47,894 nucleotides of DNA from Patescibacteria group bacterium (GTDB taxonomy: Bacteria > Patescibacteriota > Dojkabacteria > JAKAPS01), in NCBI GenBank assembly GCA_025450075.1, contig JANWIC010000004.1:1-47894 (forward strand), written 5' to 3'. Positions within the stretch are counted from its first letter, which is position 1. Each line of letters begins with the position of its first letter. Position numbers and translations under genes: made by a program. The notes below the pieces were generated by a model, which was not told the origin of the DNA, searched no databases, and saw only the letters and a program-made list of their open reading frames with translations. Positions 33,148-37,232 of the stretch are shown in pieces.

Positions 33148-34218
33148 ATGCACATACCAGATGCACAAAATCCAGAACTATTAAGAACTGATGAATATGC
33201 GACTCCTAATTTTTCATTAAATCGTCAGTTAGTATTGGCGCGATTACGAAGATTAAATCCTTTTAACCGAATTCGTCAGCTTCCTCCACCAGGAAGAAAA
33301 ACAGGATGTGCATTAGGTGCGGTGGCCATAGGTTTAGTAACTCTTCTATGTGCGGAAACATCATGTAACAGCATCCAACATCTATTATCAAGAAATGATG
33401 AGGATACCCCTACTCCAACACTTGTTTCATTACCCCCATCAAATCCAAGTTATACAATACCTACAGATACTCCTGAAGTTCCAACTGAAGTTCCTTCTCC
33501 TACTCCTACAGAAACACCATTACCAACAACGGTGACTTTAACCCCTACTGAAGTTGAAATACCTTCACCCTCTCCGACAGAAGGTGAACCTACACCAGTA
33601 AGCACACCTACACAAGTTCCCTCGGCAGTCTTTACCTATACTGGCACATATTGTACAGATACTACAAACTTTGAAATACCTCCTGCAGCATTAGAAACAA
33701 CCTTTTATACCTGCGATTCAAATGGAAGCTTGGAAGTATCAAATAACCTGCAATTGGAGGCATCTCCAACAGGAACTGTTGTATTCCTAAATCCTGATGC
33801 TGGAGATTTTAATGGCCAAACTTCAACAATTACAGCAACCGCTACGACATCATTTAGTGAGGCAGTAGATCTAGAGCAAAGCGTTGCAACATATGCCGGT
33901 GTCTCTTTATTAGATTCACAAGATGGCAGTTCACAATATGGATTAGTAGTGGATATGAACGGCGTATGGCAATTATTACATATGCAAAATGGCAAAAATA
34001 CACTCCTTGCTACAGGTATGGTTGGTATTAATCAACAAAGTATTGATCTAACTCTTTCATATCATCAAGGAGTCCTTACAGGTAGTATTGATCAAGCAAC
34101 TGTCGTTATTGGACAGGGTGCAAATAATATATATGCATATGCAGGCATGATAGTGAACCAAAATGACGGTTCTACTGGTACTGCATTATTTACCAACTTC
34201 AGGTATCAGCAAGGATAG
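33148..34218 (+). CDS. Membrane-anchored surface protein with Pro/Thr stalk and lectin-like domain (paralog 1)
   Basis: A 356-residue protein. The N-terminal 50 residues are cytosolic and basic; a membrane segment follows (GCALGAVAIGLVTLLCAETSC), then about 85 residues rich in PT/SP/TE repeats, and a C-terminal domain of about 190 residues with beta-strand-rich character, YCTDTTNF...FYTCDSNGSLEV...DSQDGSSQYGLVVDMNGVWQLLHMQNG. The last domain resembles a concanavalin-like jelly-roll by strand pattern; this is inferred by eye. A TAAAAT box ends 7 bases before the ATG, which fits leaderless expression. The next gene is its paralog. Confidence 0.7.
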   Translation: MHIPDAQNPELLRTDEYATPNFSLNRQLVLARLRRLNPFNRIRQLPPPGRKTGCALGAVAIGLVTLLCAETSCNSIQHLLSRNDEDTPTPTLVSLPPSNPSYTIPTDTPEVPTEVPSPTPTETPLPTTVTLTPTEVEIPSPSPTEGEPTPVSTPTQVPSAVFTYTGTYCTDTTNFEIPPAALETTFYTCDSNGSLEVSNNLQLEASPTGTVVFLNPDAGDFNGQTSTITATATTSFSEAVDLEQSVATYAGVSLLDSQDGSSQYGLVVDMNGVWQLLHMQNGKNTLLATGMVGINQQSIDLTLSYHQGVLTGSIDQATVVIGQGANNIYAYAGMIVNQNDGSTGTALFTNFRYQQG

Positions 34219-34288
34219 CAGCCTATAGACAATCATATTTACATAGCACATAAAGATTGCTATAATCCAATGGCATTATTAAACCTAA

Positions 34289-35338
34289 ATGAGTGATACT
34301 CTACCAGAGGACTGGGCAGATGGAATGGATAATTATGGTCGCGATCCTTTTAATACTTCATCTGGATGGGAAAATGATATGCCAACAGGTGAAAGAGATA
34401 CTCCGGTCGGGGATGGGGTAAGAGCTGCAGTTATGTCAAGAGTTAAAGATAGAATTAGAAGAAATGAAGAAACTGCAAGAATATTAGCCCTTGCTATAGC
34501 TGTATGTATAACAACTGGTACCACTTCTTTTTTATTAGTGAGTCAAGTAAGAGGATCAGGTCCTACTAGAAGTTCAAAAAGTGCGTCTAATATAGGAGTA
34601 GCTATAGCTCCAACTGAGCAACCTACCCCTACTTCAAGTATAGTATTCCAAACGCCAGTTGCAACTGAGACGGTAACTGTAACTCCTGTTCCAGAAGCTA
34701 CCCCAACAGTAATACCTTCCCCAACTGCTACAAGTGTTCCAACAGTATACAAAATAAATGCTGGCGATTATTGTACCAATGTAAACGGGTGGCAAATTGC
34801 TAACACATGGAATATGACAACTGAATATGTTTGTGATGGAAATAATGCTGTTGAGCAAGATAATACTCAAATTCAAGCTCATGCTCCTATTGCATTGCTA
34901 GTCTTTAATAATCCTGATTCAGGACAATTCAATGGAAGAACTACAACAATAACAGCAAATGTTACTGGAACATATAAAAATGCGGTTGAATATCAACAGA
35001 CTGTTAATTCATATAGCGGAATTGCACTACTTGATTCTCCAGATGGTAGTTCCTTCTATTCCATGAGTGTAAATATGCAGGGTCACTGGATGCTGTTACA
35101 TATTCAAAATGGGGAAGTTAACGTGATTAGTCAAGGAGACACTACCATCAATCAACAAGGTTTTGATCTTGGAATCACCTACCAAAACGGACAAATACAA
35201 GGAAGTATAAATGGAAAAACGCTTGTACAGCAGGCTGCTTCAGGAATTTATGCTCTACCAGGAACGGTTCTTTACCAAACAGATGGAATACCTGGTGCAG
35301 CAGAATTCGGTAACCTTATATACCAACAACAAGGTTAG
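34289..35338 (+). CDS. Membrane-anchored surface protein with Pro/Thr stalk and lectin-like domain (paralog 2)
   Basis: A 349-residue paralog of the previous gene. The layout is the same: a cytosolic N-terminus of about 65 residues, a membrane segment (ILALAIAVCITTGTTSFLLV), a PT/TVTP stalk, and a C-terminal domain with YCTNVNGWQI...YVCDGNNAVEQ...LLDSPDGSSFYSMSVNMQGHWMLLHIQNG. The C-terminal domains match along their full length, while the N-termini differ. A TATAAT box lies upstream (ending 23 bases before the ATG), so it can be expressed separately. Its 3' end overlaps the DUF805 gene by 23 bases. Likely displayed on the cell surface; function unknown. Confidence 0.7.
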   Translation: MSDTLPEDWADGMDNYGRDPFNTSSGWENDMPTGERDTPVGDGVRAAVMSRVKDRIRRNEETARILALAIAVCITTGTTSFLLVSQVRGSGPTRSSKSASNIGVAIAPTEQPTPTSSIVFQTPVATETVTVTPVPEATPTVIPSPTATSVPTVYKINAGDYCTNVNGWQIANTWNMTTEYVCDGNNAVEQDNTQIQAHAPIALLVFNNPDSGQFNGRTTTITANVTGTYKNAVEYQQTVNSYSGIALLDSPDGSSFYSMSVNMQGHWMLLHIQNGEVNVISQGDTTINQQGFDLGITYQNGQIQGSINGKTLVQQAASGIYALPGTVLYQTDGIPGAAEFGNLIYQQQG

Positions 35339-36347: not shown

Positions 36348-36378
36348 TTGACATTGACCTAACGTTATTGTCTATACT
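36348..36378 (+). promoter_or_regulatory. MerR-type promoter (19-base spacer) for the TipA-like gene
   Basis: TTGACA (36348-36353), a 19-base spacer, then TATACT (36373-36378), which ends 6 bases before the ATG. MerR-family regulators act on promoters with unusually long 19-20 base spacers, which they twist to let RNA polymerase bind. The spacer holds an imperfect dyad around TAACGTTA, a likely binding site for the regulator itself. The transcript start would be on the ATG. Confidence 0.75.
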
Positions 36379-36384
36379 CTTCCT

Positions 36385-37143
36385 ATGAAAAAGAAATATA
36401 CAGTGCAACAAGTAGCTTCCATTGCCCATATAACACCAAGAACTTTACGATATTATGACAGTTTTGGACTTTTAGTCCCCTCTACAATTGGAGAGAATGG
36501 TTATCGGTATTATACCTTTGAAGATCTTTTACATTTGCAACACATTTTATTTTTTAAAGAATTGAGGTTTCCATTAAGAAAGATTAAGGAGATTATGCAA
36601 AATCCAGATTTTGATATCTTACAGGTTCTGCAATCACACAAGCAAATACTTGAACATGACAAAGAACGAATTGAAAAAATAATTGCAGCAATGCAAGAAG
36701 CAATACAAATGAAAGGAGGTGAAAGTAGTATGTCAACAGATGATATGTTTGCAGGATTTAACAAAAAAGAGCTTGAAGAATACAAAATAGAATCAGAAAA
36801 AAGATGGGGACACACTGATTCATACAAGCAGTCTCAAGAAAGAGTGAAAAACTTTTCAAAAGAAGATTGGGAAAAGATGAATACGGAAAGGGATGAAATC
36901 CTTACAAGCCTTTGTAAAGAAATGCATGCAGGGTATGATGATCCCGAGGTACAGAAGTTAATAGATGCATATTTTCAATATATGCAGCATTTCTATGATT
37001 GCAATTATGAAATATTCAAAGGATTAGGTGAAATGTATGTACAGGATGAGCGGTTTGCAAAAAATTTCAGAATATATGATGAGCACTTACCTGAATTTCT
37101 ACGAAATGCCATTACTTACTATTGTAATTCTCGTCAGAAATAG
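36385..37143 (+). CDS. TipA-type MerR-family regulator
   Basis: A 252-residue regulator. Residues 1-70 are a MerR DNA-binding domain (YTVQQVASIAHITPRTLRYYDSFGLL, GYRYYTFEDLLHLQHILFFKELRFPL), followed by a coiled-coil dimer helix (80-112) and a TipAS-like antibiotic/ligand-binding helical domain (about 116-252; TDSYKQSQERVKNFSKEDWEKM). TipAL from Streptomyces lividans binds thiopeptides; homologs sense various drugs. The promoter has the 19-base MerR spacer and starts on the ATG. Inside the gene an AAAGGAGGTGA ribosome site precedes an in-frame ATG (codon 116), so a short ligand-binding product can also be made. It is followed by a terminator-like hairpin. Confidence 0.9.
   Translation: MKKKYTVQQVASIAHITPRTLRYYDSFGLLVPSTIGENGYRYYTFEDLLHLQHILFFKELRFPLRKIKEIMQNPDFDILQVLQSHKQILEHDKERIEKIIAAMQEAIQMKGGESSMSTDDMFAGFNKKELEEYKIESEKRWGHTDSYKQSQERVKNFSKEDWEKMNTERDEILTSLCKEMHAGYDDPEVQKLIDAYFQYMQHFYDCNYEIFKGLGEMYVQDERFAKNFRIYDEHLPEFLRNAITYYCNSRQK
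36711..36732 (+). promoter_or_regulatory. Internal ribosome binding site and in-frame start for a TipAS-like product
   Basis: GAAAGGAGGTGAAAGTAGTATG: a near-perfect Shine-Dalgarno sequence (AAAGGAGGTGA) sits 7 bases before an ATG at 36730, in frame with the full-length gene at codon 116, exactly at the junction of the DNA-binding and ligand-binding parts. In S. lividans, tipA makes TipAL and TipAS in this way. No such strong ribosome site was noticed before other genes of this window. Confidence 0.7.
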
Positions 37144-37147
37144 CGGG

Positions 37148-37171
37148 AAGTCTTGCAGCGAGGCAAGACTT
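37148..37171 (+). terminator. Hairpin downstream of the TipA-like gene
   Basis: AAGTCTTGC-AGCGAG-GCAAGACTT is a perfect 9-base stem with a 6-base loop, 5 bases after the tipA-like stop. It is followed by TATCCTACATATTTTG, a weak T-rich tract. It is probably an intrinsic terminator that separates the regulator from the ROK gene. Confidence 0.65.
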
Positions 37172-37232
37172 TATCCTACATATTTTGTTAAAATGTTGTA
37201 CATGATACAATACATATGATCACCTTACAAAT

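Follow-up and report, generated by a model that had tools for sequence, protein, structure and literature searches.

Among described regulators that join a MerR-type DNA-binding part to a drug-binding domain, TipA of Streptomyces lividans is a minimal autoregulated multidrug system, in which a single gene gives two isoforms (TipAL and TipAS) from two start codons, the short one being predominant (PMC7762955); the two products are in frame (PMC7762955, PMC6078987). AlbA of Klebsiella is assumed by analogy to give two in-frame products as well (PMC6078987), and AlbAS alone protects E. coli (PMC12144233). Regulators of the Mta, SkgA and Lmo0526 type have the same two-domain architecture and junction, and in the literature searched we found no report of a short isoform or an internal start in this class. 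As a rule, short products of the TipAS type are described for TipA alone, with AlbA presumed to be similar.

The window, by which we mean the whole stretch of 47,894 nucleotides analysed here, carries a gene that resembles tipA in combining a MerR DNA-binding part with a TipAS domain and in having an internal in-frame ATG at the start of that domain (Table 1). As in TipA, the arrangement is that of an autoregulated single gene with two isoforms, both properties being predicted for the window gene. The initial annotation had called it a TipA-type regulator, and profile searches bore this out: the N-terminal helix-turn-helix matched MerR_1 (PF13411, E = 1.5e-19) and the C-terminal part matched TipAS (PF07739, E = 1.5e-31) over the full profile (1-117). 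Alignment to solved TipAS, to SkgA and to a Listeria-type full-length homologue supported both domains, solved structures of the Mta/SkgA/Lmo0526 class aligning either from end to end or within the DNA-binding part. With phmmer, 3qao (E = 2e-41) and SkgA (7cla) were found as full-length solved relatives. Since solved TipAS (2mbz, 1ny9) aligned from query residue 117 and the PF07739 match spans residues 133-246, codon 116 corresponds to the N-terminus of the TipAS domain, as had been annotated.

Table 1. Features of the tipA-like locus, in window coordinates.
Feature	Position	Strand	Remarks
-35 element TTGACA of the tipA-like promoter	36348..36353	+	read from the sequence
19-bp spacer with MerR-type dyad, probable operator of the gene's own protein	36354..36372	+	TAACGTTA at the centre, palindrome
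-10 element TATACT	36373..36378	+	leaderless geometry, with 6 nt between its end and the ATG
Full-length TipAL-type regulator, 252 aa	36385..37143	+	MerR_1, residues 5-73; TipAS, residues 133-246
Internal Shine-Dalgarno GAAAGGAGGTGA	36711..36722	+	exact complement of the genome's 16S tail, 12 nt
Predicted short TipAS-type product, 137 aa	36730..37143	+	in-frame ATG, codon 116; junction ATG and Shine-Dalgarno conserved in relatives
Hairpin downstream of the stop codon, which may be a terminator or 3' end	37138..37185	+	-15.6 kcal/mol, z -3.7; without a strict T-run

The window protein is about one third identical to its Streptomyces homologues. The segment that reads YECGYEMHTCLGEMYV in the Streptomyces homologue L017 reads YDCNYEIFKGLGEMYV in the window, so that the first cysteine is kept and the second is glycine. 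The thiopeptide-bonding cysteine of TipAS is, we take it, Cys214. Because the second cysteine of the YDC...HTC segment differs in this way from that of TipA, covalent thiopeptide capture by the window protein appears unlikely. The predicted short product is comparable to AlbAS as a drug-binding domain acting alone as a sequestering protein; AlbAS, however, is a tandem of two TipAS-like units, whereas the window product has one. Downstream of the gene a strict terminator scan found no terminator, and the next gene, of the ROK family, begins 90 nt further on. Elsewhere in the window (33148-35338), two neighbouring ORFs (356 and 349 aa) resemble each other, with linkers rich in Pro and Thr and C-terminal domains of the same look, and are probably a tandem duplication.

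The promoter had been described as a perfect TTGACA, a 19-base spacer and a TATACT ending 6 bases before the ATG, and each of these elements was confirmed at 36348-36384. A 19-bp-spacer promoter with a central dyad thus lies at the regulator's own gene. Six bases (CTTCCT, 36379-36384) separate the -10 element from the ATG at 36385, and the long-form start has no Shine-Dalgarno (SD) sequence. Judged by this geometry, as in the initial annotation, the mRNA probably starts at the ATG, which would make the long form leaderless. With up to 3 mismatches allowed, the promoter/operator pattern occurred a single time in the genome, consistent with a private, putatively autoregulatory circuit of the window gene. 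A first operator pattern, ACGTNACGT, did not recover the site in the window itself and was given up for the present one.

The genome comprises 1.11 Mb in 25 contigs, and genomes of the same class range from 0.5 to 1.6 Mb, from which we infer a CPR-type lineage. Background statistics were taken from 382 kb, about a third of the genome. With gene starts taken from mechanical ORF calls, an SD of -6 kcal/mol or better was present near the start of 6% of 317 predicted genes (3% for the internal control), and a -10 box at leaderless distance in 25% (3% for the control); the same procedure gave 84% SD in a Bacilli genome. These results indicate that leaderless geometry is normal in this genome and that the internal SD is exceptional. 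In the literature searched we found nothing on leaderless or SD usage in the window's phylum.

The genome's own 16S rRNA ends in ...GAATCACCTCCTTTCTAA with an intact anti-SD, so the internal element is its exact complement over 12 nt, and the earlier wording, 'near-perfect', was an understatement. The core AAAGGAGGTGA lies at 36712-36722, the preceding G extends it to the 12-nt match, and the ATG of codon 116 (36730-36732) follows in frame 7 nt after the core. An in-frame start with a ribosome-binding site is thus present at the TipAS boundary. Among 1,792 in-frame internal ATGs in the 382 kb, this site showed the strongest anti-SD pairing (-18.7 kcal/mol), the runner-up reaching -13.2 kcal/mol. 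The core occurred 6 times in the 382 kb, every time a few bases ahead of an ATG, and two of the other five sites precede Pfam-supported genes (Hsp20 and DUF2795). The few perfect SDs in this sample of the window genome (G000) include those of Hsp20, of DUF2795, of a basic protein rich in Lys and Ala and of a small KGG-motif protein, perhaps a stress-type set. The second strongest internal SD of the sample, AAAGGAGGTTCAAGAATG, was located in L206 (about 2928-2943, reverse complement) at codon 253 of a 331-codon ORF without a Pfam match, where a further internal start may yield a product of 77 aa.

To follow the internal site among homologues, as the initial annotation had proposed, TipAS-domain genes were gathered in the window's phylum, where 14 of 380 genomes passed the cut-off, and also among Bacillales-type, Actinobacteria-type and Clostridia-type genomes, the group labels being those of the named locus at the search centre, and 156 full-length genes were aligned. 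The site was conserved in the sister L041, in nearly all Bacillota and in most actinobacterial relatives. It was not conserved in nine other full-length genes of the same phylum, and the L007 junction likewise had no strong SD. In a maximum-likelihood tree of 48 rows, the window gene formed a supported pair (96/94) with L041, which comes from genome G188 in a different class of the phylum and shows 42% protein identity. L041 resembles the window gene in its 19-bp spacer and in a -10 element that stops 6 nt short of the ATG; its internal AAAGGAGGT is flanked by residues unlike those of the window. Only these two of the 11 full-length genes surveyed in the phylum kept the junction SD. The nine others lack a strong one, eight of them at an ATG and one without a junction start; as the methionine is kept in most genes where the SD was lost, it may also serve the protein fold. 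Close relatives were few, the sister's class giving only L041 (8 genomes) and the window's own order none beyond the window.

All 13 promoters inspected at tipA-type genes of the phylum had the 19-bp spacer, and nearly all had an ACGT-type dyad. A leaderless distance of 5-9 nt was found in 5 of the 13 (window, L005, L006, L007 and L041), the others having leaders of 21-67 nt, and none of 11 long-form starts in the phylum had an SD of -6 or better. The long leaders of L031, L032, L033 and L039 share GGTCGACRCC between the 19-bp promoter and the ATG; this element, a potential small hairpin, is possibly a regulatory leader.

Across the wider family, a start codon stood at the junction in 72 of 72 Bacilli, 27 of 27 clostridial, 40 of 45 actinobacterial and 9 of 10 same-phylum genes other than the window gene. 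Of these junction starts, 97% in Bacilli, 96% in the clostridial set, 82% in the actinobacterial set and 11% in the window's phylum were accompanied by pairing of at least -6 kcal/mol in strength, compared with 6%, 13%, 10% and 15%, respectively, of other internal ATGs in these genes. After removal of near-duplicates (85% identity), junction pairing was stronger than under amino-acid-preserving codon resampling in Bacilli (p = 6e-11, Wilcoxon), clostridial genes (p = 1e-5) and actinobacterial genes (p = 1e-3), and not stronger in the window's phylum (p = 0.59). In counts that pool related genes, arginine codons within the motif were AGA or AGG in 26 of 26 cases in Bacilli (242 of 907 elsewhere, p = 3e-15) and in 16 of 16 in the clostridial set (179 of 427 elsewhere), and glycine codons within the motif were GGA or GGG in 73 of 77 cases in Bacilli (432 of 790 elsewhere). 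The internal SD of Bacillota is therefore under selection at the codon level. One and the same purine run was encoded through different peptides (EGR, KGE, EGG, ERG and RGG). A set of 18 actinobacterial genes has its ATG 4 residues upstream of the column in which the others align, and GGAGG has shifted along with it, always 8 nt off; these include Streptomyces genes reading MGINLTPEEKFEVFGDFDP from the upstream ATG, which we take to be the TipAS start. Proteobacterial plasmid genes had a weaker site (Legionella, -6.0; Pelagibacterium, -8.7) or none, as in the Novosphingobium and Sphingomonas plasmid genes, where no junction SD was found.

These observations bear on whether the purine stretch initiates translation at all. 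It lies at a domain boundary, and the methionine has outlived the SD in most same-phylum genes, as would be expected if the stretch were an SD-like pause site that slows ribosomes for folding, with no internal initiation and a structural methionine. A pause site would not, however, readily account for a spacing of 6-8 nt between SD and ATG in most Bacillota genes, for an ATG as the junction start in 99 of 99 Bacillota genes or for the joint shift of SD and ATG in the actinobacterial clade, and TipA itself is reported to make a short product; we consider pausing unlikely. The codon bias, the varied peptides and the joint shift together favour translation initiation over pausing or a purely protein-level explanation. 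The protein-level alternative, that only the full-length regulator is made and the window's SD is a relic or a by-product of its KGGE residues, draws on the ease with which Lys-Gly-Gly-Glu encodes an SD, on the missing SD in most same-phylum genes and on the window's own codon test, in which the SD was not significantly stronger than the amino acids allow (p = 0.12). This per-gene test is too weak, because peptides such as KGGE, EGR and KGE themselves force purines, and only the pooled test is decisive. A perfect 12-nt match ranking top of 1,792 in a genome almost without SDs, the sister's motif within different flanking residues at 42% identity and the codon bias in Bacillota all speak against a by-product, which we regard as improbable.

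A separate transcript for the short form was also considered. An internal promoter-like site, ATGACA-16-AATAAT (36656-36683), matches the consensus at 10 of 12 positions and is suitably placed upstream of the SD, about 45 nt before the internal ATG. Such sites, however, occur at 0.36 per kb per strand in this genome, the total of promoter-like sites in the region equalled the shuffled level, L041 reaches only 7 of 12 at this place and 4 of 148 other genes reach 10 of 12. As a single site at chance level that is not conserved, it was rejected, and we hold an internal promoter to be very unlikely as the source of the short form.

Initiation at codon 116 within the one transcript, as the initial annotation had suggested, is thus the reading we prefer and the one supported by the analysis. 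The locus is very probably a single-gene unit of the TipA type that regulates itself, senses a drug and sequesters it, with a leaderless long form and an SD-driven short form. The full-length protein would occupy the dyad in its own 19-bp-spaced promoter; by analogy with the MerR/TipA family, binding of a compound at the C-terminal domain would untwist the promoter and activate its own transcription. The transcript most likely starts at the ATG or no more than one base away, so that the long form would be read from a leaderless message, while the perfect SD in the same transcript would allow independent initiation at codon 116. The resulting 137-aa drug-binding domain, without the DNA-binding part, would soak up the compound. 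Since SDs are nearly absent from the gene starts of this genome, translation of the short form is expected to match or exceed that of the long form. Dual products are a known property of TipA; what is less usual here is that a leaderless long form is combined with a short form driven by an SD. In contrast to TipA, the window's long form shows leaderless geometry and no SD, whereas its short form has a perfect SD; Bacillota long forms likewise differ from it in starting with an SD (92 of 98 genes).

On a broader view, to which we give an even chance, SD-driven internal initiation is general and selected in the TipA class of Bacillota and Actinomycetota, and in the CPR-like lineage the long form turned leaderless while the internal SD was kept, leaving one mRNA with two initiation routes. 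If so, the ratio of the two proteins could shift with ribosome-targeting drugs or stress. Because nucleotide-level evidence indicates that the internal start is widely maintained, a drug-sequestering protein is probably a second product of many genes whose sole annotation is 'MerR family transcriptional regulator'. The window would offer a natural case of one message whose two starts are used in different ways, in a genome where SDs are nearly absent, and hence a clean system for how such ribosomes choose starts.

The TipAS domain was also found outside the two-domain arrangement. In three same-phylum genomes the TipAS domain is encoded by itself (L008, L009 and L030), no MerR part being detected in the vicinity; one of these genomes (G056, with L008) belongs to the same genus as G055, whose L006 is full-length. 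In genome G110 (L031:1-3348, 958-1875, reverse complement), the tipA-type gene lies in two frames, split just past the junction: the helix-turn-helix part ends in a stop and the TipAS part restarts at its own ATG about 45 nt on. The solo genes and the split L031 suggest that the domain is useful by itself, or decay.
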